DNA of 64,000 nucleotides from Streptomyces zhihengii (lineage in GTDB: Bacteria > Actinomycetota > Actinomycetes > Streptomycetales > Streptomycetaceae). Under the pieces are notes generated by a model, which saw only the letters and a list, made by a program, of their open reading frames with translations, did not search any database and had not been told where the DNA came from. Where the stretch lies: contig NZ_JAFEJA010000003.1 of assembly GCF_016919245.1 (NCBI RefSeq), forward strand, positions 62,001 through 126,000, given 5' to 3'. The position numbers and the translations under genes were made by a program. This document shows, piece by piece, positions 1,423 to 31,458 of the stretch (positions are counted from its first letter, which is position 1; each line of letters starts with the position of its first letter).

Positions 1423-2528
1423 GGGCGGCTCCCGGGGTTCAGGGGGCGGCGGGCTCCGGCGGTCATGCCACTGCGGATGATTGTTTGCGCGCGGGCTTCC
1501 TGGCCGGGGCGAGTGAGGCGGGCGGTCTCCATGAGTGCGTCTTCGGCGTCCTGGGCGGTCAGGTGTCCTGCTGAGACGAGGCCACCCAGGGTATAGGCGG
1601 CGCGGTTGAGTTTCTCGGAGAAGCCGGTGCCCTCGGTGGAGTGGGCGCAGTCGGCGATTTCGGCGAGGGCGTTGGTGAGGATGGTGATGACGGGGTTGTT
1701 GGTGCCGCGGGCAGCGAGGACGGCTTGGCGTGCGCGGCCGGGGACGGGTCGTGGTGCTGGTACGTGGGGGGCTGGGAGGTGGTGGGTGCGCTGAAGTTCC
1801 TGCGCGAGCCAGGTAGGCAGTGGTGCCGGGGTTCGTGCGGTGCCGAGGGGTGTGTAGGTGCCGGCGTCTGTTGTCGTGCCGGGCGCGATGATGTAGCCGC
1901 CGTCGGCGCGGATGTCGACCTGCCAGGCGAGGGCGCGGGTGGTGCTGGAGCCGGTGGAGCACTGCCAGTGCCGGGCGTCGGTTTGGCGGTACCAGACGTG
2001 TAGTCCTCCGGAGGGGGTGCGGACGCGCAGGGTGCTGGTGTCCTGGGCAGGGCTGGGCTGTCCGCGGAGGGCTGCGAGTACGGCGAGGGTGTGGAAGCCG
2101 GTGGTCATGGCGGACACGTCGATCTCGTCGGCGATGTCGATGCCGGGGAGAAGTCTGTTACGGGTGGGTGGGGTTGCGGGGTGGGCGTCGATGTCGATGA
2201 CGACAAGGTTGGCCGGTCCGCAGGCGATGCCGACTCCCATGCGAGGTCTGGGACCCCACCACTGCTGGATGCGGGTGCTGTCGAGGGTGGCTGCGTGAAA
2301 GCCGTGGCACCAGCGACCTGCAGCGCGGCAGGGGCAGGTGCGGCGGTCGTGTCCGGGCTCTCGGCAGGCGGGGCAGTTGGCGGCGGGTGTCTTCCGGCCT
2401 GGGGCCAGAGGGTGGACCGGCCACCCGTGGCTGGCGCACCAGCGTGCGAGCGCCAGGGCACTGGGCTGAGTGGTGACTGGAGTGCCGTGCTCTGGGTCGC
2501 TGACGGGAAGCCGCAGGTCAGAAGGCAT
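1419..2528 (-). CDS. Bifunctional DNA primase/polymerase (prim-pol), N-terminal type
   Basis: A 369-residue protein from the ATG at 2528, preceded by a purine-rich GGGGGA ribosome binding site; the frame extends to a TTG at 2561, but that would run into the iteron-like repeat at 2543-2558, so I prefer 2528. A possible zinc cluster (CPAC..H..CPC, residues 52-68) is followed by the catalytic pair IDID (residues 111-114) and the PSGGLHVWYR motif (SGGxH) typical of archaeo-eukaryotic prim-pol domains (PF09250). It probably synthesises primers, or extends DNA, for the element whose helicase follows immediately. The repeats directly upstream fit a replication origin next to the initiator genes. Confidence 0.88.
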   Translation of the reverse strand: MPSDLRLPVSDPEHGTPVTTQPSALALARWCASHGWPVHPLAPGRKTPAANCPACREPGHDRRTCPCRAAGRWCHGFHAATLDSTRIQQWWGPRPRMGVGIACGPANLVVIDIDAHPATPPTRNRLLPGIDIADEIDVSAMTTGFHTLAVLAALRGQPSPAQDTSTLRVRTPSGGLHVWYRQTDARHWQCSTGSSTTRALAWQVDIRADGGYIIAPGTTTDAGTYTPLGTARTPAPLPTWLAQELQRTHHLPAPHVPAPRPVPGRARQAVLAARGTNNPVITILTNALAEIADCAHSTEGTGFSEKLNRAAYTLGGLVSAGHLTAQDAEDALMETARLTRPGQEARAQTIIRSGMTAGARRPLNPGSRP

Positions 2529-16849: not shown

Positions 16850-18822
16850 GGGGTCTGGCCCAAGTTGTGTGAGGTGACTACTCGTTGTAGTTGTTGATCT
16901 CCGCTTCTGATACTGGAAGGTCGCCCGGATTTCGCTCATCGCATGGCTGGCGTGCTCGACATTCGGTTGCCGTGAGCGAAGATCCTTCCGTGGTGCAAGA
17001 GCTGTTGTTCCCGTCGAACACGATGATCGTGATTACGTCCGCCCAGACGTACGGCGAAGCGATACGCGTCGAGGCACGGTGCACCGCGAGCAGCGCTTGC
17101 TGTCCGGCATGCGGGGACTGGTCGGCTCGGGTTCACGGCTCCTACCAACGGTTTCCCACGGATCTGGCCTGTGGTGGGCGGCCGTGTGTGCTGGTGCTGA
17201 GGGTTCGCCGGTTCGTCTGCGCGGCTCCGGCCTGTTCGCGGCGTACGTTCGTCGAGCAAGTGCCCGGACTGAGGAGGCGACATGGCCGGACCACCGAGCG
17301 TCTGCGGTCCACGATGGGCAAGGTCGGTTTGGCGCTCGCCGGGCGGGCCGGTGCACGGCTCGCCGCGCATCTGGGCATCGTGACCAGCCGCAATACGCTG
17401 TTGCGGCGGGTGATGGACTTGCCCGACCCGGCGCCGACCGAGCCTCGCGCTGTCGGCGTGGACGACTTCGCCCTGCGCCGCGGCCATGTCTACGGGACGG
17501 TCGTGATCGACGCCGAGACCCACCAGGTCCTCGACCTGCTGCCCGAACGCGACGCCGCCACCCTCGCCCCCTGGCTCGCGGCCCGCCCCGGAATCGAAGT
17601 CATCTGCCGCGACCGCGCCGGCGCCTACGCCGAAGCGGCCCACGTTGCCGCGCCCCAGGCCCTCCAGGTCGCCGACCGGTTCCACCTCTGGCAGAACCTC
17701 GCTTCCGCCGTCGAAAAGGCGGTGGCCGCCCATCGCTCCGGCCTGCGTGACCTGCAGTTCCCCGTTCCCGAGCCGGACCCCCTCTGGGAGGACCCGATCG
17801 GGGACGCCACCGGGCGGGATGATGAAACGGACTTTCCGGAGGGCAAGTTCGCCGAGCGGGCCCGGATGCACCATGGTCTGGTCCACGAACTCCTCGCCCA
17901 AGGCATGAGTCTGCGGGCCGTCGCACAGCACTTGGGCTGGGGCCGACACACCGTGCAGCGATACGCCCGCGCAGTGGCCTGGCAAGACATGGTCAAGGGG
18001 CGGAAACGGCAGCTTCCGAGCAAGCTCGATCCGTTCAAGCCCTACCTGGCGGCGCGCTGGGCTGAGACCGGCGGAAGAGTGACCGTCCTGGCTCTCTGCC
18101 GGGAGATCACCGCCCGAGGCTTTCGCGGCCACTACACCATCGTCTGCGACTGGATCCGCCGCGACCTGCCCCAGCGGGAAGGTTTCACGCCCGCTCCGCC
18201 ACCACCATCGGTACGGCAGGTGACCGGCTGGATCACCCGGCACCCGGCAACCCTGACCGAAGCGGAGAAGCTCCACCGCAAGGCAGTCCTCGCCCACATC
18301 CCGGAACTGGCCTCCGCCGCCGAACTGACCAACTCGTTCGCGGAAATGCTCACCACGCTCGACGGCCTGCGTCTGCCCGAATGGATCACCGAAGCAGTGG
18401 CAGCCGGCCTGCCCGGCATCAGCACCTTCGCGGCCGGACTCGAAAGCGACTTCGACGCGGTTACCGCCGGACTCACCACCCACTGGAACTCCGGACCCGT
18501 TGAAGGAACGGTCAACCGGATCAAGATGCTCAAGAGGCAGATGTTCGGCCGCGCTGGCTTCCCGCTCCTCCGGAAACGAGTTCTCCTCGCGTGAAGGTGC
18601 CGGGGTCCAGTGGGGTCTACTCAGGACTCCGATCGCGAGTCACGCGTGCGGCTGCCGCCTGCACCGTCTCTTACTCCCACTGGTTCGACCCTGGGGTCTC
18701 GGGCGCCCCGGCGGCACCTGTTGAAGCGACTCGGCGAGCATTTCACGTCTCGATCAGCAAGGCCAGGGTCGCAGGCGGCCGTCACACACAGTTCACGTTC
18801 CACAAAACTCGGGCCAGACCCC
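16850..18822 (+). mobile_element. ISL3-family insertion sequence
   Basis: The left end GGGGTCTGGCCCAAGTTGTG (from 16850) matches the inverted right end GGGGTCTGGCCCGAGTTTTG (ending at 18822). The transposase gene lies between. I could not find an 8-bp target duplication: the flanks are TTCGAATT and GAATCAGA. The element may therefore be old or have recombined. Confidence 0.75.
16891..18594 (+). CDS. ISL3-family transposase
   Basis: Up to 567 residues; the start is uncertain, and the conserved part begins around VVQELLFPSNTMIVI, so the valine-start at 16972 or later is possible. It has the zinc-binding N-terminus (CCPACGDWSARVHGSYQR, CAAPACSRRTF), the DDE residues in VGVDDFALRRGHVYGTVVID and VICRDRAGAYAEAA, the helix VADRFHLWQNL, and the C-terminal HWNSGPVEGTVNRIKMLKRQMFGRAGF that is diagnostic for ISL3. 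It catalyses cut-and-paste transposition of the element. Reading frame intact; the last residues are short compared with some family members but the stop precedes the right inverted repeat. Confidence 0.9.
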   Translation: MLISASDTGRSPGFRSSHGWRARHSVAVSEDPSVVQELLFPSNTMIVITSAQTYGEAIRVEARCTASSACCPACGDWSARVHGSYQRFPTDLACGGRPCVLVLRVRRFVCAAPACSRRTFVEQVPGLRRRHGRTTERLRSTMGKVGLALAGRAGARLAAHLGIVTSRNTLLRRVMDLPDPAPTEPRAVGVDDFALRRGHVYGTVVIDAETHQVLDLLPERDAATLAPWLAARPGIEVICRDRAGAYAEAAHVAAPQALQVADRFHLWQNLASAVEKAVAAHRSGLRDLQFPVPEPDPLWEDPIGDATGRDDETDFPEGKFAERARMHHGLVHELLAQGMSLRAVAQHLGWGRHTVQRYARAVAWQDMVKGRKRQLPSKLDPFKPYLAARWAETGGRVTVLALCREITARGFRGHYTIVCDWIRRDLPQREGFTPAPPPPSVRQVTGWITRHPATLTEAEKLHRKAVLAHIPELASAAELTNSFAEMLTTLDGLRLPEWITEAVAAGLPGISTFAAGLESDFDAVTAGLTTHWNSGPVEGTVNRIKMLKRQMFGRAGFPLLRKRVLLA

Positions 18823-19608
18823 GAATCAGACCGGCAAAGCCAATGGGGCTGTGCTCTGCCGACATCCCCAAGTGTCGTAATTCCATTGATGTTCGTGTCT
18901 CGGAGCCGGGCACGCTGGCGGTCAGCCACGACCGGAGCGCCGAAGGTCTTGCGCTGTGTGACGGCGTTCCTCCGAGACATCGCGCGCAGCGCCATCGCTC
19001 ACGTAGCTGGAGCGGCGTGCGCCACCCGTCGCCGCAAGCCGACAGCTCGCGGTCGGCGCGCCGCGTTGCTTCCGCTCTTCGTTCTCTCCGCGAACTGTGT
19101 ACGCCTCGGCCGGGCGCGCATGCACCTCTGCTGAAGGCCCGTCTCGGCGCAGGGGAAGGGCCCATCCCCGCATGCGCAGGGAGCCGCGGCTCCAGGCGGA
19201 CGCGACGGATCCAGGTTGGGGCCATCCCCGCAGGCGCGGGGAGCACACTCGGCGCCGTCCTCGGGCACGGTGGGAAGCTGGGCCATCCCGGCCAGCACGC
19301 GGGACAAACGGGCTCAGATGGCAGTATCGACAACGGACGCGCTACCGCACGACGCCCACCCTACTAACCTGGATCACTCGGCAAGCCGGAGAACGGCAGC
19401 CACCGCCAGCGCATACGGCTGCGTCGCGCGCCGGCGCTTCAAGAAGGCAGCTCTGCAGAGTGCTCTGTGCATACGGGCGGATACGACCGTCTGGTCGAGA
19501 CAGTGCTGGCCGCGGATTCCCAAGACCGGGACAGGGCAGCACGAATCGCTCGCTCGAAGGGCGCCCGTCTTGAGGTACTTGGGTGCTGTGCCGTCGTGCC
19601 GGCATCCG
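18823..19608. other. Gene-free region with eroded CRISPR units
   Basis: No gene is supportable in this 786-bp stretch. It contains three recognisable CRISPR repeats at 19157-19312 and weaker look-alikes at about 18869 and 19098. Confidence 0.55.
19157..19312. CRISPR. Eroded type I-E-like CRISPR array B (three units)
   Basis: Repeats with the core CCATCCCCGC...GCGGGGAGC start at 19162, 19222 and 19283, spaced 60 and 61 bp. The second, CCATCCCCGCAGGCGCGGG, is close to the Streptomyces type I-E repeat (reverse complement of ...GCGGGGATGG); the outer two are diverged. Confidence 0.65.
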
Positions 19609-20976
19609 TCATATCGTGGCTCCGGTTGGGCCTTCTGTCTGAGTGCCCCTTTGCCGCAGTGCCATGGTTACCGGGTCAAGCGGAGGGGGCCAGGGCTGGT
19701 CGCCGGGGTATCGGTCATCGTGTGCGGTGACGGTGGGGCGTCCGGAGCTGGCGCTGATGGTCAGCCGGATCGTCGGGGATAGCCAGAGGTCCCACGGACC
19801 CGTCCCGCTGGAACGAAGGACTAGGCGTTCCAGGATCTGCGGTGGGACGGTGAAGCGTTCCTGGGTGATGGAGAGGCCGAATAGAGCCGGGGACAAGCTG
19901 TTTGACTCGCCGCGGCGCGGGGTGCGCTGGCGGGGCCGGCGCACCCCTGGGTACAGGGCCGCGTAGAACTCCTGATAGCTGGTGACGTGCCGGACCCCGG
20001 TCGGAGTGAGATGTAAGGCCTGCAGGTCGCCGAAGGTGCGCCGGACGGCCATCGATGGCGGAAGCTGCTGCAGAGTTTCGGGGCGCGCGACCAGTGGGGC
20101 GGGGACCCATGACGCTCCGGCACGGGGCTCCACCTCATGGAGTGCGACCAGGACCTGCCAGGTGTCGGACGGTTGCGCGCTGCGGTGGAATCCTTCGAGG
20201 AGCCCTGGGATCCGGGCAAGCTCCGCGTGGTAGAGCCCTTCCCACCGCTCGGCCGCCTTCTCCGCTTTGAGCTGGCGAGAGGGTTCGGGATCGAAGTCGG
20301 CGATTACGCGCTCTCGTTCGCGTCGGGCAGCTGTGAGGCGCAGCTCTCCAAGGACTCTTGTGAGTATGCGCCGTATACGTTGCACGGGTCTGCCGTAGAG
20401 CTGGGACAGCCGCTGGACCCCGGGGTCGTCGGGGCTCGGCCCCTTCCAGTGGCCCGGGCGGCGCACGTAGGTGGTGGCGAGTCTTTCGATGATGGCTTCC
20501 GTCTCCTGGCGGCGCACGGCGACGGCCGGGATGTTGTCCATGGCGCTGTCGAGGATTGAGTGCCAGATGCCGAGGGCTTGGACGACGTCGTCGAGGAACC
20601 GGGGTCTGCGCGCCGGGACGATGCCCTGCTGCTCCAGTCTGCGGTAGGACTTTGGGGAGATGCCCAGTTCTGCGCAGAGCTCCTGGGCGGTGCGACCGCT
20701 GGCCCGGCGCCAGTCGGCCACGTTCCAGGTCTGCCAGTTGTCCCGCTTCATCAGGTCAATGGGGCGGATGCTCAGGCGCTCGGCGAGTAGCCGGATTCGT
20801 GCGGGATCGGGTGTGCGGTGGCCGTGCTCGTAGGCAAGGATCTGTGCCTTCGTTGTACCGACGAGTTCTCCGAGGCGTGCGGCGCTCAGCGGTTGCGGGT
20901 TGCCGTCCCGATCGGCGTGGGACTTACGGGCGTTGTAGAGCGCCACTGGGTCAAAGTCCGCAAGTCCGCGGGCCAT
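19609..20976 (-). CDS. Regulator with two XRE-type helix-turn-helix segments
   Basis: 455 residues from ATG 20976, preceded by AGGAGG at ideal spacing. Residues 25-75 form an XRE domain (LSAARLGELVGTTKAQILAYEHGHRTPDPARIRLLAERL) and residues 88-125 a second one (RTAQELCAELGISPKSYRRLEQQG). The remainder is without known motif; it contains an arginine-rich helix (RRILTRVLGELRLTAARRERERVIADF) and a C-terminal beta-rich part ending GPWDLWLSPTIRLTISASSG. The protein stands alone, with 600 bp or more of empty DNA on each side. It could be a plasmid maintenance or transfer regulator; no partner is visible. Confidence 0.82.
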   Translation of the reverse strand: MARGLADFDPVALYNARKSHADRDGNPQPLSAARLGELVGTTKAQILAYEHGHRTPDPARIRLLAERLSIRPIDLMKRDNWQTWNVADWRRASGRTAQELCAELGISPKSYRRLEQQGIVPARRPRFLDDVVQALGIWHSILDSAMDNIPAVAVRRQETEAIIERLATTYVRRPGHWKGPSPDDPGVQRLSQLYGRPVQRIRRILTRVLGELRLTAARRERERVIADFDPEPSRQLKAEKAAERWEGLYHAELARIPGLLEGFHRSAQPSDTWQVLVALHEVEPRAGASWVPAPLVARPETLQQLPPSMAVRRTFGDLQALHLTPTGVRHVTSYQEFYAALYPGVRRPRQRTPRRGESNSLSPALFGLSITQERFTVPPQILERLVLRSSGTGPWDLWLSPTIRLTISASSGRPTVTAHDDRYPGDQPWPPPLDPVTMALRQRGTQTEGPTGATI

Positions 20977-22019
20977 GCACTGCCTCCTAACGGCACTTCA
21001 GAGGACCATTTTAGAGGTACATTCCTGCAGGGCCAACTAGATGCCACGCAGCGTCACAGTCCCCCTTGAACTGCGCTGTTGTGCAGTTAGTCGGCCATAC
21101 ATCTGGATCGCAGGTGCTCAATACGGGAACTTGGGCATCATCGGCGCCACGGTGCAGCTACAACTTCTACGTGTGCGCGTCCAGTGCAAGAAGGTGGCCC
21201 CACCCCCTTGGTTCGCGAAAACCCAGAGCGGGGAATGGGGCCGGCTACGGGAGCTGACAGCTCCGCATACGGGCTTCCTGTGCCACCAGGGGGCCCGTTA
21301 GCCGTTGGGGGAGACTCCCGGAGGTGCGGTGACCCTTTCGGCGAGTGCCTGCGAGATCAACCGTTCGAGAACCTTCTTCGCGAGCTTGCGGTTCGTCGTC
21401 TGCCCTGCCCCGCCTGAGCGAAGCAGGTAGCTGCCATGGCCATCACCTCCCTTCCGGTCCGGTGGGCCCTCCAGGGAGGCCCTCCGGCGTACCGTGCGAC
21501 AAGGCGACATCACAACTTTAGCGGGTGAGTCCATTCGGGCGGAGTGATGGACAGCGCAACGACGTTCGCCTGTTGCGTATCTGATGGCATGGCAGATCCG
21601 GAAGCGATAGCTCCGGCATTTCGTTACCGAGCGGTAGAACTTGGCGGTAGCTATAGAACTGCTGTCACACACATGTCACTTCACCGGAAGACCTTCAGCC
21701 GTCTAGACCAGTATCCGATATTCGAATATCAAGAACCGGTGACGTGTGCGAAATTGACCGAGTCTTGACATTTATGGAAACGCTACGACGTGACGTATCC
21801 CACACTTCGAGGTGCTGCAACTCGTGAACCTCGGCGCTGACGTGCACGACTTCTCCACGCATTCCCCCGCAAGCACCCGCCGCTGCCGCGAGTTCCCGGA
21901 CTGGCGCACCCCGATCGAGGCTCTTCGACGCCAACGCCCCAACTGGCGGTGGACGGCCAGAAGCCGCCATGGCACTTGCATGGGCGACGGCCTCCTGGCC
22001 GCCGGACTCGTGTTTCGCT
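20977..22019. other. Gene-free region upstream of the two-HTH regulator
   Basis: I see no convincing gene in this 1 kb. A minus-strand frame near 21298-21440 (RKLAKKVLERLISQALAERV) looks protein-like but has no good start codon after its GGGAGGTG motif. GATATTCGAATATC at 21717-21730 is a perfect 14-bp palindrome in an AT-rich patch and may be an operator. Confidence 0.4.
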
Positions 22020-25000
22020 TCAGCCGTCTTCGGAGTCCCGCCTACGGCGAAGGGCTCTCGCGAGTGCCGCAGCGGATGGCCATCGACGGTTGAGCGCCAT
22101 GGTGACGGTGCCGAGCTGTTGGGCCCGCTCCTGCGCCCGAAAGACTTGGGCCCGGTGCCGTTCGAAGCGGCGCTGGGCCTCGTTGTACTGGGCCAGCCAT
22201 GCTTCCTGCTGCTCCTCGGAGCCAGGCAGCCAGTCGTTGGTTTCGGGATCGAACCCGTCAGGGAAGATGTGGTTGCCCTCGTCGTCGTAGGAAGCGGACA
22301 TTCCGTACAGTGCCGGATCGAACTCTGCATGCCCGGGGTCGCTGCCGAGGCTCGCGTTCGCCTGCCGGACCGAGAAGGCGAGGCGACGGCGTTCCATGTC
22401 GGCTTCGAGCAGGCTGACGAAAATCTCTTCACCGACCCGTACGATCAATCCCGCGTCGTCCACGTGGTGGTCGGCCAGTTCGGAAATGTGAACGAGGCCC
22501 TCGACGCCGCCGTTCACGCGGACGAAGGCGCCGAAGGGAACGATCTTGGTCACCGTGGCTGGAAGAATTTCTCCAACAGCATGGCTGCGCGCGAAGACGC
22601 TCCACGGGTCATCCGTGGTCTCCTTGAGGGAAAGGGTGACACGCTCCCTTTCCAAATCCACCTCCATGACCCGAACCTCGATCTCCTGGCCGAGTTCCAC
22701 GACGTCGGACGGCTGGTCGACACGTGACCAGGACAGTTCTGAGATGTGTACGAGTCCGTCGAGACCACCGAGGTCGACGAACGCGCCAAAGGGGACGATG
22801 GAGGAGACCGTGCCCCTGCGGACTTCACCGACCCGCAGTGTGTTGAGTAACTCGATGCGCGCTGCAGACTCGGCTTCCTCAAGGAGGGCTCGGCGGGACA
22901 GGACGATGTTCCGGCGGTCCGTGTCGAGTTCGAGGATCTTGGCTTTCAAGGTTAGGCCGAGGTACGGGCGGAAGTTGCGCACGCGCCTCCGCTCGACCAG
23001 GGAGGCCGGCAGAAAGGCCCGGACGCCGATGTCGAGGACAAGGCCGCCCTTGACCACCTCGGTCACCGTCCCCTCGACGGAGCGGTCTTGCTCGTAGTGT
23101 TCACGCAGCGCGTGCCAACGCCGGTGCTCAACTGCCTGCCGGTGCGAGACGAAGCAGCGACCCGTAGGATCTCGGCGTCTGAGGATCAGCACCTCGAGGC
23201 TGTCGCCGACGGCTAGCTGCGCATGTGGTTGTGTCTCCACGGCCGTCAAGATGGCCTCCTCATCACCCAGTCCGATGAGGAAGGAGCCCTCCTGGATGGA
23301 GGCGACGATTCCCTGGACGATGTCTCCCGGCCTGTACCGCGATGTGCGGGGCGCGGCAGGTTCGGGAGCTGGAGGCGGCTGCTGGGTCTGCGCGAGGACT
23401 GCCTGCTCCAGCAGGCGGGCGATGGAGCGGTGCTGGCCGCCGGCTCCGCTGAGAACGGCGACGGCGACTTCCGCGAAGGGCAGGCTGCGAGGATCGAGCG
23501 GTGACGATGCGGGGCGGTCTTCGTTGCCGACGAGTGAGGCAAGAGCGCGGAAGTCCAGGGTGCCGCCGAATGTCGCCGCGACGCGGCGAGACACGTTGGC
23601 GAGTACGTCCTCAAGCACCACCAGGGATTCGCGGCGTGTCAGCTCCGCAAGGAGTTCCTCCCGCACACCCGGGCGGAAGTCGTAGACCACGTCATCCGGG
23701 TCCTGGCCCGATTGTTGCTGTTCACGGCGTTCAATGAGACCCGAGACGAACAGCTGGGCAAGGTCGGTCTGCTCTGAGCGCGGGACGAGTTCACGTTGGA
23801 CAATGCGCATGACGGGCAGGCTCAGCGGCACGGCAGCCAGGTAGCACGCAAGGCGAAACGCCATGGATGTGCTGCCGGCATGGAAGCGTGCCACTCGCTC
23901 TTGCGGAGTGCTGGCGCCACTTTCTTCCTCTGCGGGAGGTCGGGGCACATTGCCGAGGGGAGTGGCGAGCATCGGCACCCAACTGCTGCTGCGGCCTCCC
24001 AAATGCTCGGCCCAGGGGGCAAGCCATGAGCCGTGAACTTCCATGACAGGCAGCCACCGAGTGCACGGCGCCTGCGCATTGCTTGCTCGGGGGGACGTCT
24101 GAAGCGGGGGCGGCAGGTGGCGGGTGCGGAACTGCAGAACGGGCCGGGCAGGGTCGGTGATGCGGGCGTCGACATTCTCTGTCGGCACTGCGGTGCGGTG
24201 CCACAGCCGGCGGGGCAGCACGTGGAGCACTGCGGCAGGGCGTTTCGATGTCTGGCATGCAAGGAAGGCCGGCAGGCTCGGTCCGTACCAGGCCGGTCCG
24301 ACGGCGTCGGTGAGCACCAGAAGCAGGCGGGTGCCGGTCGTGTCCTTCAGGGGGCGATGCCAGTGGGCGGAAGGTTGTGGGGCTGACGGGCTCATGGAGG
24401 GCTTGCGACGGAAGCGGGTCAGCGTGGGTGTCTCGGTATCCGTGTTCATCGCCCATTGCCGGATGCTGTCGAAGGCCCCGTGGCGCTCGAGCAGAGTGCC
24501 GAGTTCACCGGCGAGATGATGCCAAACGGCCATCGTGCTACCCGTGTCGACCACTAGGTCGACACCGAAGCGGGGCTTGGTCGCTGGTCGCCATACGGGG
24601 ATCAGACGGGCTGCTTCGCCGGTTGCCTGCGCCGTCGCCTCTTCGTCGAGGTCCGGTGGTGCTCCGGATGCGGCCACAAGTTGGCGCAGGGGACGTAGGG
24701 CCCGGTTCAGATGCAGCGGGTCGGAGAGGAAGGCGGGCCGACTGACCTGCACCACGTGAGCGGAAACGTGGCCGAAGGCCACGTCGCGTCCTCCGCCGAG
24801 GGTGTGTAGACGCACCGTGGTCGTGTTCACGGCGCACGTTTCGGGTGCGGAAGCATGGAGACGGTCGCCGTTCGATCCCGGAGCGGCTGGGTCGAGCGCG
24901 TCCTTGTGCCCGCCGGGAGAATCGGATTCCGGGACGGAATGGGGCTGCAGGGGTGTGCTGCCTGCCTGAGGCGGGGCGCCGATGATGCGCGAGACCCACA

Positions 25001-25127
25001 GGATGTCGGCCAGGTCTTTGGGGTCGACGCCGCCGCCGTGAGGCAGGTCGGCGTCATCCGTCTGCAGCAGCCCGGCGAGGGCGGCGAGTAGATGCTCGCG
25101 CGGAGAGGACGGGCTAGTCATGGCCAT
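22020..25127 (-). CDS. SAV_2336/vWA-like protein fused to a ribosomal protein S1 (RpsA) copy
   Basis: 1035 residues; start ATG 25127 or the in-frame ATG at 25121. Residues 1-580 match the SAV_2336 N-terminal family: FGVDLVVDTGSTMAVWHHLAGELGTLLERHGAFDSIRQW with a degenerate vWA/MIDAS DxGST at 194-198, LLLVLTDAVGPAW (268-280), then LPRRLWHRT. After a Pro-rich linker (583-597) come four S1 domains at about 600-665, 682-748, 766-836 and 851-922, with EVVKGGLVLDIGVRAFLPASLVE, PFGAFVDLGGLDGLVHISELSW and PFGAFVRVNGGVEGLVHISEL, and then the RpsA tail (EFDPALYGMSASYDDEGN, GFDPETNDWL, residues 935-1000). The order and spacing are those of actinobacterial 30S protein S1. S1 domain 1 is the most diverged. 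Last gene of the conflict operon; its start overlaps the MoxR gene stop. Confidence 0.9.
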   Translation of the reverse strand: MAMTSPSSPREHLLAALAGLLQTDDADLPHGGGVDPKDLADILWVSRIIGAPPQAGSTPLQPHSVPESDSPGGHKDALDPAAPGSNGDRLHASAPETCAVNTTTVRLHTLGGGRDVAFGHVSAHVVQVSRPAFLSDPLHLNRALRPLRQLVAASGAPPDLDEEATAQATGEAARLIPVWRPATKPRFGVDLVVDTGSTMAVWHHLAGELGTLLERHGAFDSIRQWAMNTDTETPTLTRFRRKPSMSPSAPQPSAHWHRPLKDTTGTRLLLVLTDAVGPAWYGPSLPAFLACQTSKRPAAVLHVLPRRLWHRTAVPTENVDARITDPARPVLQFRTRHLPPPLQTSPRASNAQAPCTRWLPVMEVHGSWLAPWAEHLGGRSSSWVPMLATPLGNVPRPPAEEESGASTPQERVARFHAGSTSMAFRLACYLAAVPLSLPVMRIVQRELVPRSEQTDLAQLFVSGLIERREQQQSGQDPDDVVYDFRPGVREELLAELTRRESLVVLEDVLANVSRRVAATFGGTLDFRALASLVGNEDRPASSPLDPRSLPFAEVAVAVLSGAGGQHRSIARLLEQAVLAQTQQPPPAPEPAAPRTSRYRPGDIVQGIVASIQEGSFLIGLGDEEAILTAVETQPHAQLAVGDSLEVLILRRRDPTGRCFVSHRQAVEHRRWHALREHYEQDRSVEGTVTEVVKGGLVLDIGVRAFLPASLVERRRVRNFRPYLGLTLKAKILELDTDRRNIVLSRRALLEEAESAARIELLNTLRVGEVRRGTVSSIVPFGAFVDLGGLDGLVHISELSWSRVDQPSDVVELGQEIEVRVMEVDLERERVTLSLKETTDDPWSVFARSHAVGEILPATVTKIVPFGAFVRVNGGVEGLVHISELADHHVDDAGLIVRVGEEIFVSLLEADMERRRLAFSVRQANASLGSDPGHAEFDPALYGMSASYDDEGNHIFPDGFDPETNDWLPGSEEQQEAWLAQYNEAQRRFERHRAQVFRAQERAQQLGTVTMALNRRWPSAAALARALRRRRDSEDG

Positions 25128-26178
25128 CGCTCAGCGAGCGGAGGAGAACATCTTGGATGATCTTACGGCCTGGGTCGTGACGCCACAGGCCGCGCTCTGC
25201 CATCAGCAGGGCGTTGAGGAGCTGGTCGTTGGCCAAGACTGCCCCTTCCTCACGCTGGCGGCGCAGGAATTCGGCGATCAACTCGGTCCGTGCAGACTCG
25301 GTTTCAATGTTCCCTCCCAGATGGGCAGCAACCATCGCCGCCAGTCGCTTCTCGTCCGGTGGCTGGACCTTGAGCCTGACACACCGGCGCAGGAAGGCGG
25401 TGGGGAACTCGCGTTCCCCGTTGCTGGTGAGGACGACCAGGGGGAACTGGGCACATCCCACTCTGCCGTCCTTGATGATCGCCTTGCCGTCCTGGTCAGA
25501 GGTCATCACCTGCCGGCGCCCTGGTCCCAGCCGAGAGAGTTCGGGAATCGTGTACTCCCCCTCCTCGAAGACGTTGAGAAGGTCGTTCGGCAGGTCGACG
25601 TCGCATTTGTCGATTTCGTCGATTAGCAGGACGCGGGGCCGCCGCCACGGCAGCAGGGCTGTTCCAAGGGGACCGAGCCTCAGATACTTGCCGATCGCCA
25701 GATTGCGCGAAGGTCTCTTGGAGCTCTTGAGGCCTGCGTCATGCAGGCGGCCGATGGCGTCATAGACATAGAGGCCGTCGCGCAGGGTTGACCGGCTGGT
25801 GATCGACCAGCGCAGTACGGGCCCGAGCCCGAGTTCGTGCGCCACGGCGTAGGCAAGCGTGGATTTGCCCACGCCAGGCTTGCCGGTGATGAGGAGGGGT
25901 CTGCGCAGGTGCAGGGCCAGGTTGACGAGTTGGATGTCTTTCACATCTGCTTGGAAGGCTTCCGCTTGTTGGGTGCGCCCCAGCCTTCGGTCTGTGACTG
26001 CTGGAGTGTCCGCGGGGGGCATCAGAAGTTCGTCTTCGTCGAACGTGCCGAAAGCACGCCAGGCGGGTGTGTCGGGCAGATCCTCGATTCCGTCGTGCGG
26101 CATCCGTGAGCCGCGGTAGATCCACCAGTCCTCGCCAGGTAACGCCGACTCCTCGTTGCTGCCCTGCGGGCTGTTCAT
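25114..26178 (-). CDS. MoxR-type AAA+ ATPase of the VMAP system
   Basis: 354 residues from ATG 26178, which overlaps the VMAP stop by ATGA; a longer open frame reaches 26559 but lies inside the VMAP gene. Walker A GKPGVGKS is at residues 99-106, Walker B VLLIDEIDK at 183-191, sensor 1 in VVLTSNGEREFPTAFLRRC (248-266). The N-terminal 60 residues include WWIYRGSRMPHDGIEDLPDTPAWRAF, a conserved leader of MoxR proteins coupled to VMAP. In these systems the ATPase is thought to remodel or load the vWA partner using ATP. Its stop lies inside the start of the SAV_2336-S1 gene, so the two are coupled. Confidence 0.92.
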   Translation of the reverse strand: MNSPQGSNEESALPGEDWWIYRGSRMPHDGIEDLPDTPAWRAFGTFDEDELLMPPADTPAVTDRRLGRTQQAEAFQADVKDIQLVNLALHLRRPLLITGKPGVGKSTLAYAVAHELGLGPVLRWSITSRSTLRDGLYVYDAIGRLHDAGLKSSKRPSRNLAIGKYLRLGPLGTALLPWRRPRVLLIDEIDKCDVDLPNDLLNVFEEGEYTIPELSRLGPGRRQVMTSDQDGKAIIKDGRVGCAQFPLVVLTSNGEREFPTAFLRRCVRLKVQPPDEKRLAAMVAAHLGGNIETESARTELIAEFLRRQREEGAVLANDQLLNALLMAERGLWRHDPGRKIIQDVLLRSLSDGHD

Positions 26179-27692
26179 GACACCATCCCGGTGAATCGGA
26201 GGTCTTGCTTTCGGTCCACGCAGTCGGGGTCTTCCCAGAGCAGCGTGATGTGATTGCGCACGTCGCTGTCCGCAGCCCCGCGCCCCTGGAAGCGGCACTG
26301 ATGAATGATGTCCGGAAGATCCGCCAGGCAGCTCGGCTTGTGGACGCGCAGGGCTTGCATGAGGGTCTCCGGATCGCCAGCGGTGCGGACCCACAGCACG
26401 GCGGGGATTCCGTCGGTGAACATGGCCGCGTTGACCGCTTCTTGCAGCTTTGGATCGAGTTGTTCGTAGGGCTGCCGCAGTCCGAGGCAGGCGAGGGCGG
26501 GCCGCTCCATGATCCAGGATGAGAACTCGCTGTTCTTTCCCGGAGTCATCGCCGGCCATTCGATGAGTTCTAGGACATCCATCTGGCCGTCGCTGCCGCG
26601 TTGGTTCAATCGGCTCCAGCGTCCCTGCCAGGGCTGTCGGCTGATGAAGGTATCGATGTACCGCTCACGGGAACGCACGACTACAGGGTGGTGGTGGCCC
26701 AATGCCTGACCGGTCGGGCCTGTCGCCCACAGTTCGGCCGGGTGACCCAGGAGCCGGGAGGGGAGAACGAACTCGATGCGTGTCGCTGGTGGCGGCACGG
26801 CTTCGAGTTCGTCGGCCAGACCTTCCCACGCGGTCAGGGAGTTGTTGCCGTGCGTCGTGAGCTCACTGGTGCGCAGGGACAGGGGCTGGGTGAGGGATGA
26901 GACTCTGGTGAACGCACCTCCAGCTTGGGGCTGGCGGTAGCACGTGGCGTACAGGCCGTAGCGGGCGTCGTCGATGTGCGGCGCATCTTCAGGCTCAAGG
27001 CGGACCTGGATGATGAGCCGGTACTCTCCCGTGACCTGTACTGCGGACTGGTCCGCTGGCAACTCCAGCCGGTCGAGAATGTCCCTTACGGGCGCCCGGT
27101 TGGCGTGATGTCGACTGGTGGTGTCCCCGGCCAGAGAGCGCAGGAAGCGCGCGAGGAGTGCGGGCCCCTGGTCTCCCCACAGGCTGGCGATGCGGACAAG
27201 GATCTCGGGAAGAGTTTCGTGCCCTTCGAGCGCGGTGAGCCCCTTACCGGCGTTCGCGGCATGGAGTTTGAGTTCGGCGGGCCGGGGCTGTGGATCAAGG
27301 GCGCGCAGCACGCGGATCAGCTGCCCCATCTCGTGCACAGGCAGCGGCTGTTCGTCTACGACGGACCGGACCGCCACCTGCAGCCAGGCGAATGCCCTGT
27401 CATCGTTGGCCATGGCTTCCAGGGCGTCGCAGATCGCCTCAACTGCCCCCATCGGGTCGCGCCACGCGGCGGCGGCGGACAGCATGCTGCGAACGTGGTC
27501 CTTTGCCGTCGCCCCATGTTGCACACTGGCGCCGAATCCTCGGCACCCCGGATTGCGCGACACATGGTCGAGCAGGTCCGCACGGAAATCCGGCCTGTTC
27601 ATGCTGGCGAAGTCGGCGAGGAGGTCGCACAGCAGATTCTGGGCGTCCTGACTCCACGGCTCGGCGTGCGCCGGTTCGCATACCTGCGTCAT
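26175..27692 (-). CDS. VMAP-like protein with N-terminal effector-associated domain
   Basis: 505 residues from ATG 27692, 5 bases after the protease stop. Residues 13-95 form a helical EAD-like domain (LLCDLLADFASMNRPDFRADLLDHVSRN ... WRDPMGAVEAICDALEAMA). The rest resembles the VMAP C-terminal region: YRLIIQVRLEPED, a beta-rich middle, LADELEAVPPPATRIEFVLPSRLLGHPAELW and the late PALACLGLRQPYEQLDPKLQEAVNAAMFTDGIPAVLWVR. Family knowledge: VMAP proteins (vWA-MoxR-associated proteins) are the central scaffold of ternary conflict systems, linking sensor, ATPase and effector through EADs. The assignment to VMAP rests on this pattern and on the neighbours, not on a profile search. Confidence 0.82.
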   Translation of the reverse strand: MTQVCEPAHAEPWSQDAQNLLCDLLADFASMNRPDFRADLLDHVSRNPGCRGFGASVQHGATAKDHVRSMLSAAAAWRDPMGAVEAICDALEAMANDDRAFAWLQVAVRSVVDEQPLPVHEMGQLIRVLRALDPQPRPAELKLHAANAGKGLTALEGHETLPEILVRIASLWGDQGPALLARFLRSLAGDTTSRHHANRAPVRDILDRLELPADQSAVQVTGEYRLIIQVRLEPEDAPHIDDARYGLYATCYRQPQAGGAFTRVSSLTQPLSLRTSELTTHGNNSLTAWEGLADELEAVPPPATRIEFVLPSRLLGHPAELWATGPTGQALGHHHPVVVRSRERYIDTFISRQPWQGRWSRLNQRGSDGQMDVLELIEWPAMTPGKNSEFSSWIMERPALACLGLRQPYEQLDPKLQEAVNAAMFTDGIPAVLWVRTAGDPETLMQALRVHKPSCLADLPDIIHQCRFQGRGAADSDVRNHITLLWEDPDCVDRKQDLRFTGMVS

Positions 27693-27697
27693 CGGCC

Positions 27698-28639
27698 CTA
27701 CGCGCTTTCCCAGCCGCCGATAGCCCGCCCGATGACCTCGCGCAGCCGCTCCAGGGCCTGGTCGTAGGGGGCCAGTTCCTCCATAGCGGTGTACAGCGCT
27801 GTGTACGCGCTCTCCTTGTCGCGGAAGGACTCGATACGGCTCACAATGCGTTGGAGATGAGCACGACGGTCAGGTCGGTCGTCGGCGTCGAACGAATGCG
27901 GCAGCCCGAGGTGGTTGCCCATGATGTCGAGCAGGTCGAAGCGTGCCTCGGGGCGAGCCAGGACAGGAAACGCCAGAAGCGCGTCTACGATCTCAGCCTG
28001 AGACGGCACGGGCTGGCGAACGGGTGCTGCCACCGGCCGCACACCCAGGAAACGGGCCAGTGCCCCGACCGGGACGAACCAGCCGCCCGCGTCAGTCCTG
28101 TAGTTGCGGCTGCCCTTGAGTACGCCGCACACCGTGCCGTCCTGGTTGAGGACCGCGGCGCCACTGTGCCCGGGTCGGACACCGTCACCGAGGAACCTCC
28201 GATACGGCCCAGATACGCCCGCCACGCGCAGCAGAAGTGTCTCGGGTTTGGCCCCGTCGAAACCTGGAACGGTCGAGGAGTAGCCCACGATCGTTACCTC
28301 GCTGCTGACCGGTGCTTCGTCCTGTGCCAGAGGCAGCACAGGGTGATTCGCCAGTGCCGGAACGTGCACGGTCGCAAGGTCGGGGAACGGATAGAACAGT
28401 CCCCCGTCGCTGTTCTTGGGCTCGGCACGCACGTCGTGCGCCTGTACCGGGTAGGCACCGGAAGCATGGTGGATGACGAGGTCGCTGAGCGTGCCGTCGC
28501 CGACTACTACGTGCGCGGCTGTGGTTACGGTTCCCGCACTGGTGAGGAAGCCGCTGCCGCAGAACTCATCCTCGGCGCTGATCCACACAGTGCGCGCCAT
28601 CAGGGCTTCCATGGGTTCCGAGAGTCCGGTCCGGATCAC
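27698..28639 (-). CDS. Trypsin-like serine protease with C-terminal effector-associated domain
   Basis: 313 residues from GTG 28639 (GTGA overlap with the Trypco1-like gene stop). Catalytic triad: H43 in VTTAAHVV, D87 in FPDLATVHV, S159 in RPGHSGAAVLN, so the enzyme should be active; no signal peptide, hence cytoplasmic. Residues 213-305 form a helical EAD-like domain (AEIVDALLAFPVLARPEARFDLLD, then SRIESFRDKESAYTALYTAMEELA) that resembles the N-terminus of the VMAP protein next door, suggesting like-with-like binding. In this class of systems the protease is held by the scaffold and released or activated on infection, to cleave a partner. Confidence 0.88.
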   Translation of the reverse strand: MIRTGLSEPMEALMARTVWISAEDEFCGSGFLTSAGTVTTAAHVVVGDGTLSDLVIHHASGAYPVQAHDVRAEPKNSDGGLFYPFPDLATVHVPALANHPVLPLAQDEAPVSSEVTIVGYSSTVPGFDGAKPETLLLRVAGVSGPYRRFLGDGVRPGHSGAAVLNQDGTVCGVLKGSRNYRTDAGGWFVPVGALARFLGVRPVAAPVRQPVPSQAEIVDALLAFPVLARPEARFDLLDIMGNHLGLPHSFDADDRPDRRAHLQRIVSRIESFRDKESAYTALYTAMEELAPYDQALERLREVIGRAIGGWESA

Positions 28640-29028
28640 GCGGAGGCCGACGGCTGTTCACCCGACGGCTTAAGGTTCCAGGACAGTCGCACGGTCAGGG
28701 CCGCCTCGCTGCCGGCTTCCGCGATGACTCCCAGGAGTTGGCCTGACTTCACCGCTAGCTTGAGACCGAATTCCACCTCGAAGGAGTCCGGGTTCCCGGC
28801 TTCCCCGTCGATGATGGTCTTGGCAGCCCACCGCCCTACGCCCTGGACGGTGGTGCCTACCTGTTCCAGGCTCATCGTCACGGCAGACCCGAGCTTCTCA
28901 GCCGCCTTCTTTCGAAGCGCGGCATCCCCGAACTCTTCACTCTGCTCGAACGGCACGCTGCCGACGACTTCAGCCGCGACCTTCGTACCGTCTCCGAGGT
29001 CGATCATCACTGTCTCAGAAGTGGTCAT
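28636..29028 (-). CDS. Trypco1 / CU044_2847-family protein
   Basis: 130 residues from ATG 29028 behind CGAGGGGGAG. The sequence has the family plan: a first strand with VMIDLGDGTKVAAEVV, a helical middle and the signature SFEVEFGLKLAVKSGQLLGVIAEAGSEAALTVRLSWNLK. Trypco1 (trypsin co-occurring domain 1) proteins are small beta-rich partners encoded next to EAD-linked trypsin-like proteases in conflict systems; the molecular task is not established. First gene of the five-gene operon. No clear promoter is visible, but the empty 500 bp upstream leaves room for one. Confidence 0.85.
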   Translation of the reverse strand: MTTSETVMIDLGDGTKVAAEVVGSVPFEQSEEFGDAALRKKAAEKLGSAVTMSLEQVGTTVQGVGRWAAKTIIDGEAGNPDSFEVEFGLKLAVKSGQLLGVIAEAGSEAALTVRLSWNLKPSGEQPSASA

Positions 29029-29058
29029 AGCTCCCCCTCGATCTCACGGGTCGTCATC

Positions 29059-29472
29059 TTAGGCAATGTTGAGCAAGCCCGTGGCAAAGAACACAAGTTC
29101 AGACGGAAGCAGACGATGCGTCCGTACCTCCCGCCCCTGCGAGGGCGGCTTCCGCCCACCCGCGCACGTGGGGCACTGGCGACCACGGCAGCTCGCTCGC
29201 TCCGCGCGCCACCACACTCCGCGCACACGTAGAGGACCGGCTGACGCCTCGGTCGGGTGTTCTGGCGCCCGCCGGACCAAGGCGCCCGGGCACTTCATTG
29301 CGCTCGTGCCTGCCAGGAGGTTGCCGACAGGCACGAACGTGTCTGACAGGCGGAGGCGTACTTCAAGATCGTTCGGCAGAACCTGCACCCGGAGGAGGTC
29401 GCCGCTGAAGTGAGCGCCCAGTCCGCGTTCCCTGGCCAGGACGACGAGTATCCGGATGTGGTGAAAGTCCAC
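29059..29472 (-). CDS. Possible small hypothetical protein upstream of the conflict operon
   Basis: 137 residues from GTG 29472 (MDFHHIRILVVLARERGLGAHFSGDLLRVQVLPNDLEVRLRLSDTF). The first 70 residues have GC-rich third positions and look protein-like; the later part, with CPTCAGGRKPP, is less convincing. It lies just upstream of the Trypco1-like gene on the same strand and downstream of an IS5-family remnant that could have removed its original start. It may be a decayed first gene of the conflict operon or not a gene at all. Confidence 0.3.
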   Translation of the reverse strand: MDFHHIRILVVLARERGLGAHFSGDLLRVQVLPNDLEVRLRLSDTFVPVGNLLAGTSAMKCPGALVRRAPEHPTEASAGPLRVRGVWWRAERASCRGRQCPTCAGGRKPPSQGREVRTHRLLPSELVFFATGLLNIA

Positions 29473-30260: not shown

Positions 30261-30537
30261 GCGTCGCCGTTGACGTTGCCTGGACTCCCAGTAGTTGCCC
30301 AAATGTATCTGAGTTCGACCTTGGTAGTACCGGAGGATAGAGAACCGGTGGCAGGGTGCGCACAACAGGCCGCATGCGCCGATGCGGAATTCGAACCGGA
30401 CAGCGCAGACCCGTGCATCGCAAATAGGTGTGCCCAGCTCACGGAACGACTCCTTTATGAGACCGTCGGCTGATTTCCGTAAGCCGGTTGAACACGCCAC
30501 TTTTGCCAGACACCGGGACTGTGGAAGGGTAGGCTGC

Positions 30538-31458
30538 ATGTTCGATCTAGCTTTCGGGGACCAGGTGCATCTTGATGTTCCCGACCTCAACATCCCTTTC
30601 ACTGCGACCCTTCATCCGGCGGTTGCAGCGGCAGGCGACCACGCAATAACGTGGGCGCGCGAAGCGGGTCTGCTCGAGGGAAAGTCAGCCGAGGAGCGAG
30701 CCCTCCGAGAAGGGCACTTCCGCTTTGCTTCCTGGATGTATCCAACAGCCTCACTGTCGCATCTTGTCCAGCTCACAGCAGTGGACGCCTGGATGTTTCT
30801 GGCCGATGACCACGCCGATGAGCTCCGGACTATCGACGGACTCATCAGCAGTGGTGGAATCCTCGGCGAGGTGCTACAGCGCATCGAAGCGGACATGAGC
30901 CCGCAGTGGTGCACCCGATTCCGTGAGCATCTTGCCGACTGGGTCACGAGCAACGAGCAGGCGGCCACCCGACACCATGCTCAGGAAGTTCCGTCCCTTG
31001 AGGAGTACGTGCCGTGGCGGCGCGTATCAGGAACGCTACTGTGGGGTTTCGACCTGGTTGAGTATGCTACGGAGCGCGAACTGCCTGCCGCCTCTGTATC
31101 TAGTTCTGCGTATGCCGAACTCGTTGAGGCCGCCGCTGACGTTATCTGTTGGACTAACGATCTCTACTCGGCTCCCAAGGAGATCCAGAGAGGGGACCCG
31201 AACAACCTGCTCGTAGTCCTGCAGCACCATTACGGTATGACTCTCCAAGAGGCCGCCGAAGCCACTGTCGAGCGCATAGAAGCCCGAGTTTCCGAGTTCC
31301 ATGCTCTGCTCCCGACTATGCTTGATCAAGCGCCTCCGTCCAGCCTCCATTCAGTCCACCGAGCATGGGCTGACGGGCTCGCTTCATGGATGCGGGGAAA
31401 CCTGGAGTTCTGCCGCGAGTCGCCGAGGTACGCCATGCCGGCCCCTTCAAGCGAGTGA
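30538..31458 (+). CDS. Terpene synthase, class I
   Basis: 306 residues from ATG 30538 (GGAAGGGTAGG upstream); the longer frame from 30382 is low quality. The metal-binding motif DDHAD is at residues 90-94 (AWMFLADDHADE), the second motif NDLYSAPKE (NDxxSxxxE) at 207-215, and the C-terminal RY pair at R297-Y298 (ESPRYAMP). The length matches bacterial sesquiterpene or related cyclases. It ionises a prenyl diphosphate and folds it into a cyclic hydrocarbon or alcohol. No P450 or prenyltransferase is adjacent, so the product is unmodified unless other loci contribute. Third positions are somewhat less GC-rich than in neighbours, hinting at separate acquisition. Confidence 0.92.
   Translation: MFDLAFGDQVHLDVPDLNIPFTATLHPAVAAAGDHAITWAREAGLLEGKSAEERALREGHFRFASWMYPTASLSHLVQLTAVDAWMFLADDHADELRTIDGLISSGGILGEVLQRIEADMSPQWCTRFREHLADWVTSNEQAATRHHAQEVPSLEEYVPWRRVSGTLLWGFDLVEYATERELPAASVSSSAYAELVEAAADVICWTNDLYSAPKEIQRGDPNNLLVVLQHHYGMTLQEAAEATVERIEARVSEFHALLPTMLDQAPPSSLHSVHRAWADGLASWMRGNLEFCRESPRYAMPAPSSE

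Follow-up and report, generated by a model that had tools for sequence, protein, structure and literature searches.

A VMAP ternary system of Streptomyces zhihengii with an RpsA-derived S1 module on its vWA protein, a possible integrated decoy

The VMAP ternary systems, which form MoxR-vWA subsystem 1 in the survey of Kaur et al. 2020 (PMC7159879), are predicted to act in defence. The C-terminal part of their vWA protein is variable, and one sentence of that survey names ribosomal protein S1-like OB (oligonucleotide/oligosaccharide-binding) domains among the parts found there; a combination of S1-like and KH domains is called NusA-related. In the scheme proposed in the same work VMAP senses and a peptidase frees the effector linked to the vWA protein, and decoys are suggested for inactive copies of host enzymes. 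A different division of labour was put forward for vWA proteins diversified by diversity-generating retroelements (Dore et al. 2024, PMC10907252): the C-terminal binding domain of the vWA protein is the proposed sensor, MoxR the relay and a peptidase the executor. The available text of a third report, on MoxR-vWA iSTAND systems (PMC12839542), has no bearing on S1 domains. Here we describe an operon of the VMAP type found in a stretch of 64,000 nucleotides (the window) of the Streptomyces zhihengii genome (contig NZ_JAFEJA010000003.1, positions 62,001 to 126,000 of the forward strand), in which the vWA protein is fused to a module derived from the ribosomal protein RpsA (bS1).

The vWA-S1 fusion, its operon and its recurrence

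The fusion is encoded by an open frame of 1035 residues on the minus strand of positions 22020–25127 (Table 1), in which a SAV_2336-type vWA half is followed by four S1 domains of RpsA type and by the tail of RpsA. The plus strand of this segment carries many stops in the same register. Two ATG codons, at 25127 and 25121, are candidate starts, and the database copy of the protein (P0006, 1033 amino acids) takes the latter. Residues 36–516 match the NCBIfam model NF041121 (SAV_2336_NTERM) with 332 bits (cut-off 200), and both aspartates of the metal-ion-dependent adhesion site (MIDAS) are found in the vWA fold. Four S1 stretches are recognized by Pfam, and residues 598–1004 match 30S ribosomal protein S1 (NF005911) with 530.6 bits (E 3.5e-159), under the equivalog cut-off of 691 bits below which 53 of 60 phylum genomes likewise fall. 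Chance is excluded as the source of such a frame. A sequence-only reading of this DNA had called a continuous frame with a SAV_2336/vWA-like N-terminus and four S1 domains of RpsA type in a conflict-system setting; all these assignments hold, on the minus strand. In the vWA N-terminal extension the printed spacing of the [D/E]xxx[D/E]xxxa motif is missing in four of five fusions, and DxxDxxW is found in all five. The anthrax-receptor vWA leads the list of structures similar to the vWA domain (VIA-align), matches that reflect the common vWA fold and give no word on function.

The order of the genes, 5′ to 3′ on the minus strand, is Trypco1, trypsin-EAD2, VMAP, MoxR and the fusion, which is the last core gene. 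From its sequence features the operon is a VMAP ternary system, sharing with those described the order VMAP, MoxR, vWA (in the window and in locus L028 of Streptomyces sp. t39), the MoxR N-terminal motifs (WWIYRG and PAWRAF, where WxhapG and PsWRxa are expected, together with Walker A and B), the MIDAS aspartates, the VMAP-C domain, the trypsin/EAD/Trypco1 accessories and the variable vWA C-terminus. The difference lies in the C-terminal module, an RpsA-derived array of four S1 domains followed by the RpsA tail. The EAD2 match of VMAP (E 0.028) is under the Pfam cut-off; its N-terminus resembles the EAD2 of the trypsin protein.

Homologous fusions are found in other genomes, with six distinct sequences in all: the window's own, P0007, P0008 (Streptomyces sp. 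HB202), P0009 (Streptomyces sp. NPDC058052), P0010 (S. olivaceoviridis) and the one of L028, of which P0007 is a near-copy (97% across the S1 half). Both halves, at 96–100% query cover, are present in at least five proteins among the 120 listed of 3337 with E ≤0.001. A profile built from five fusions retrieved 75 proteins at E ≤1e-150 among 7991 scored; the five score at least 1767 bits and the next protein 749. A genome scan with two peptides taken from three close fusions, a design blind to sequences like P0009 or P0010, returned 41 pattern matches and two confirmed loci, one being L028 and the other coming from a Desulfurellales record at 24% identity. Within the genus the full-length fusion occurs in one of the 61 genomes sampled, the window's own, while in 32 others with a match only the S1 half is covered, as RpsA would be (cut-off 1e-150, at most 13 candidates scored per genome). 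Related vWA proteins end in TIR, NaeI, WD40, kinase or NTPase parts in place of S1. Gene contexts were read for two of the six fusions, and that of L028 has one ambiguous residue. An artefact of frame or assembly is rejected because the same fusion and operon stand in another sequenced genome (L028), and further fusions are present in four other protein records. A plasmid- or phage-borne fusion was also dropped, as none of 72,556 plasmid records and none of 50,697 phage records holds 80% of the protein in one place.

Origin of the S1 half and its losses relative to RpsA

The S1 half is derived from RpsA and belongs with the RpsA of the genus itself. When 58 actinobacterial RpsA and the six fusions are placed in one tree (domain 2 to tail, 314 columns), the fusions nest with Streptomyces-type RpsA (support 86/97), in a group of 13 rows made of the six fusions and seven Streptomyces-type RpsA (four from the window's genus group and three from named Streptomyces); the RpsA identity proposed from the letters alone is thus upheld. 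The 58 RpsA rows (56 sequences, L009 and L030–L084, minus the duplicate L032, plus the three named Streptomyces) are best-scoring matches only, a choice that leans to typical RpsA. The six fusions are joined with support 74/83 on long branches (P0010 0.83, P0009 0.72, stem of the four close fusions 0.68, against about 0.01 or less for RpsA of the genus). The tree of vWA halves comprises 48 SAV_2336-type sequences, namely the window's piece and 47 of the 120 listed proteins, L028 being left out; the five fusions form one clade (100/100) adjoined by a NaeI fusion (91/91), and the composition of P0009 and P0010 is unusual. Because the vWA halves form one clade, a single capture of RpsA is the simplest view; from the S1 half alone it is likely but not firmly shown. 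The genome has an ordinary RpsA elsewhere (C1:6210075-6211550), up to 99% identical to that of named Streptomyces, and the possibility that the fusion is the ribosome's own S1 was dropped on this account.

The losses are heaviest in the docking helix and the first S1 domain. Taking as reference the residues invariant in 33 class and genus RpsA, and giving ranges over the six fusions, 1–2 of 13 are left in the docking helix, 16–21 of 62 in S1 domain 1 (D1), 40–45 of 57 in D2, 45–55 of 64 in D3, 35–43 of 53 in D4, 13–15 of 15 in the tail and 7–8 of 9 in the helix that follows it. The identity of D1 to the host RpsA is 26–32% in the fusions versus at least 86% in 28 class rows, and the D1 loop position that is lysine in all 58 RpsA aligns with aspartate or serine in all six fusions. 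OB-type strands are still predicted for D1 of the fusion, with good confidence. In Escherichia coli the N-terminal helix and the lysine of D1 loop 2 anchor bS1 on uS2 (PMC10123108), and in Mycobacterium smegmatis the N-terminal helix of bS1 touches uS2 (PMC6133939). Judged by alignment, the fusions would probably lack both contacts. The C-terminal motif ALASDEALAALREKL of RpsA is also missing from the window's fusion. Compared with actinobacterial RpsA, the module thus shares the four S1 domains and the class-specific tail, and lacks the docking helix, the docking lysine and the C-terminal motif, with D1 diverged; the description of it as a whole RpsA copy had to be abandoned.

All six fusions have lost the docking parts; D3 and D4 are eroded to different degrees, with 84 and 76% identity, respectively, left in P0010. 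The positions F/F/H/D/R, which we take from the S1 domain of polynucleotide phosphorylase to be the RNA-binding set of S1 domains, are intact in D3 and D4 of all six fusions (60 of 60 cells). The tail had been held to be diagnostic of RpsA. It is a typical feature of the class, whose 28 rows have on average 82% identity to the host RpsA; in the 25 other rows of the phylum the average is 14%, so the tail does not characterise RpsA as a whole. A model of the S1 half superimposes on the C-terminal part of M. tuberculosis RpsA (4nni, D4 and tail) with 1.7 Å over 156 columns, and the sequence match to that solved part runs through residue 996.

The S1 module is maintained under purifying selection. 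The ratio of nonsynonymous to synonymous substitution rates (dN/dS) between the window and L028, a single pair with dS of 0.53–0.91, is 0.31 in D1, 0.19 in D2, 0.14 in D3, 0.21 in D4, and 0.15 and 0.07 in the tail, next to 0.135 for the vWA part and 0.045 for MoxR. Random decay of a dead module was dropped in view of these values, 0.07–0.31 from D1 to tail. In P0010 the region behind the S1 half (residues 1003–1347) contains ten unevenly spaced copies of the RpsA C-terminal motif ASDEALAALREKL, each scoring higher than 95% of the maxima obtained from 500 shuffles; one copy ends the host RpsA and none is left in the window's fusion. Elsewhere in the genome the motif gave one weak match (E 0.41), which lies in a polyketide-synthase region and is attributed to chance.

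Possible roles of the S1 module

The sequence-only reading had offered two roles, an effector competing with RpsA or a decoy. We give the decoy a tentative preference: the altered RpsA copy on the vWA arm would be an integrated decoy, baiting invader proteins that attack or recruit S1. The effector survives as a rival. Competition with RpsA on the 30S subunit looks less likely than that reading assumed because the docking residues are gone. In plant NLR (nucleotide-binding leucine-rich repeat) integrated decoys a copy of the attacked host protein is fused to an immune receptor. The analogy is one of working principle only, as the proteins are unrelated and the candidate decoy described here has no known attacking factor. 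The pattern expected of a decoy, a copy of a host target on a putative receptor with its native function presumably impaired and the target surface kept, would fit the fusion sequences.

The module would no longer be a working ribosomal protein because it should dock poorly on uS2, and would still display the surfaces used by S1-directed phage factors. Once an invader factor was bound, the vWA arm would switch state; the signal would pass, through ATP-driven remodelling by the MoxR ring, to the EAD2-coupled trypsin, whose release would stop the growth of the infected hyphal compartment or kill it. By analogy this scheme would follow Dore et al. 2024 (the vWA arm senses and the peptidase executes) and not Kaur et al. 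2020. It differs from the former in the sensor itself, which there is a C-type lectin fold varied by reverse transcriptase and here would be a module copied from a housekeeping protein of the host. Several phage factors are reported to act on S1. ModB of phage T4 RNAylates arginines R139 and R142 of D2 (PMC10468400), T4 RIII binds S1 chiefly at E. coli domain 5 (PMC9409239) and replicases of RNA phages recruit S1 (PMC10931766). The counterparts of R139 and R142 (first and fourth residues of RRVRD, assigned by eye) are both arginine in every fusion except P0010, which has Q and H, and the parts of S1 used by known phage factors appear to be of the kind retained in the fusions.

A number of observations weigh against the decoy. 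The window's fusion, L028, P0007 and P0008 are close kin, so that the six sequences amount to few independent points, and the tree tool warns of possible false joining by long branches. A one-residue gap adjoins the aligned docking lysine, whose partner in the fusions is therefore not certain. We know of no actinophage factor aimed at S1; a search for T4 ModB gave 1036 phage records, and the ten commonest of 27 organism names were all enterobacterial or T4-like. The E. coli domain 5 bound by RIII has no one-to-one match in a four-domain RpsA. Retention of the presumed RNA-contact residues is weak evidence because they are near-invariant in the 58 RpsA too, and by sequence their full retention would also suit an RNA-binding effector or an RNA sensor. 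The tail may be retained for structural reasons, as it is part of the solved C-terminal structures of M. tuberculosis RpsA. In E. coli, S1 fully loses 30S binding only when D1 and D2 are both deleted (PMC3858243), so 30S binding of the fusion may be weakened and not lost, perhaps with some residual binding through D2. Lastly, Kaur et al. place the C-terminal domains of vWA proteins as effectors (PMC7159879).

The latter placement leads to the strongest rival, which we regard as unlikely yet still serious: on infection the trypsin would free the S1 module, which would bind mRNA, or perhaps transfer-messenger RNA (tmRNA), without delivering it to the 30S subunit and so shut translation down. Kaur et al. 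2020 (PMC7159879) propose that these systems deploy their effectors in this way, by protease release, and a tmRNA interaction is reported for M. tuberculosis RpsA (PMC7239899). The trypsin retains its candidate catalytic motifs, the linker between the two halves varies and contains basic residues in all but one of the six fusions (by eye), and an mRNA sponge would need what is found, all presumed RNA-contact residues of D3 and D4 present and the docking parts lost. Such a sponge would, however, require a high copy number because the host RpsA is presumably abundant; both the cleavage of the fusion and its site are only presumed, and the best-kept segment is the tail and not the RNA-binding domains. 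The decoy and the released effector part ways on two points, the toxicity of the freed module and the cleavage of the fusion.

That the module is an RNA-sensing arm is improbable. It would bind invader mRNA or unfolded RNA, its occupancy switching the MoxR/trypsin relay, for which it has all presumed RNA-contact residues in D3 and D4; S1-like, cold-shock, KH and TGS RNA-binding domains are listed at the same position by Kaur et al. (PMC7159879). S1 domains are expected to tell host from phage RNA poorly, so that self-triggering would be likely, and here again the tail is better kept than the RNA-binding domains. A non-immune arm, through which MoxR/vWA would act as a translation- or stress-linked chaperone remodelling ribosomes or trans-translation complexes, is very improbable: other MoxR/vWA pairs are complex-assembly chaperones, such as midasin in ribosome assembly (PMC7159879), and M. 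smegmatis bS1 also touches the hibernating ribosome (PMC6133939), but the distribution is patchy (one of 61 genus genomes, to which the genome scan adds a single confirmed Streptomyces locus), the related vWA proteins carry the other C-terminal parts listed above and the docking residues are lost.

Returning to the decoy, its fuller history, in which a Streptomyces RpsA was captured once, lost its ribosome anchor and was kept as bait on a MoxR-gated protease relay, with ten motif copies in the S. olivaceoviridis relative, is a possibility that we hold with greater doubt. If true, it would provide a bacterial immune receptor with an integrated decoy built from a core ribosomal protein, and S1 would have to be a protein that the phages of multicellular actinobacteria attack or recruit. 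The phage cases described in the literature searched are T4, lambda and the RNA phages. It would also allow a direct test of whether the variable vWA arm of MoxR/vWA ternary systems senses or kills, because much is known about RpsA, mutations can separate its docking face from its RNA face and a normal copy is present in the same cell. The sequence-only reading knew of no described defence system with this fusion. S1-like vWA C-termini had been named by Kaur et al. 2020, while no capture of RpsA on a vWA protein was found in a full-text literature search that covered PMC7159879 without its source data. Relative to the literature searched, the RpsA origin, the selective loss of the anchor with the rest retained and the motif copies of P0010 were not found in print; the system itself is known.

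Features of the locus and genomic surroundings

Table 1. Features of the VMAP operon and its downstream neighbour (positions of the window; res, residues of the fusion).
Feature	Position	Strand	Remarks
SAV_2336-type vWA protein fused to RpsA-derived four-S1 module, 1035 aa	22020..25127	-	open frame and domain matches
SAV_2336 N-terminal region, res 36-516: N-terminal helix, vWA domain, start of helical C-terminal extension	23580..25022	-	
MIDAS first aspartate D194 (DTGSTM)	24546..24548	-	second MIDAS aspartate is D274 (LTDAVGPAW)
S1 domain 1, res 599-668, strongly diverged, docking lysine lost	23124..23333	-	
S1 domain 2, res 683-750	22878..23081	-	63-71% identity to host RpsA, six fusions
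S1 domain 3, res 764-837	22617..22838	-	presumed RNA-contact residues retained
S1 domain 4, res 849-923	22359..22583	-	presumed RNA-contact residues retained
RpsA tail EFDPxxYGM...GFDPETNDWL and following helix, res 935-995	22143..22325	-	best-kept fusion part
MoxR-family AAA+ ATPase, 354 aa from ATG at 26178	25114..26178	-	AAA_5; 94% identical in L028
VMAP: EAD2-like N-terminus and VMAP-C	26175..27692	-	PF20028 E 1.3e-29, 104 bits (cut-off 27)
Trypsin-like peptidase with EAD2	27698..28639	-	candidate triad His, Asp, Ser motifs present
Trypco1 (trypsin-co-occurring domain 1), 130 aa	28636..29028	-	PF19493 E 4.5e-16
Helix-turn-helix (HTH) protein, 455 aa, downstream neighbour	19609..20976	-	84.2% identical, same place in L028

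All five genes and the HTH gene downstream of them are shared by L028, with protein identities to the window of 91.5, 80.5, 84.1, 94.4 and 78.2% from Trypco1 to the fusion and 84.2% for the HTH protein. The window's DNA is similar to that of L028 across 19600–21866 and 22045–29139, which sets the likely unit. The HTH gene has a dN/dS of 0.13 (window versus L028) and its product is a possible regulator of the operon. A small open frame between it and the fusion (dN/dS 0.84, differing ends) is probably no gene. Outside this unit the neighbourhood of the operon is rearranged between the two genomes. Window positions 303–2424 resemble pieces of L028:41-1816, which lie upstream of the operon in L028 and far downstream in the window. 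An ISL3-family transposase gene (16891–18594, plus strand) is found about 1 kb past the HTH-gene end of the conserved unit, and a terpene synthase family 2 gene (30382–31458, plus strand) near the upstream end of the operon.

The source genome (9.73 Mb in 7 contigs) has a second VMAP ternary system on contig C2 (2048500–2060000; L085), whose vWA protein has another C-terminus, resembling by eye a degenerate NTPase. The same contig encodes a protein (C2:1697264-1697731; L010) that ends in two S1 domains similar, by eye, to D3-D4 of RpsA. They sit behind an uncharacterised part, with no VMAP gene found adjoining, and represent a second reuse of RpsA-like domains in this genome.

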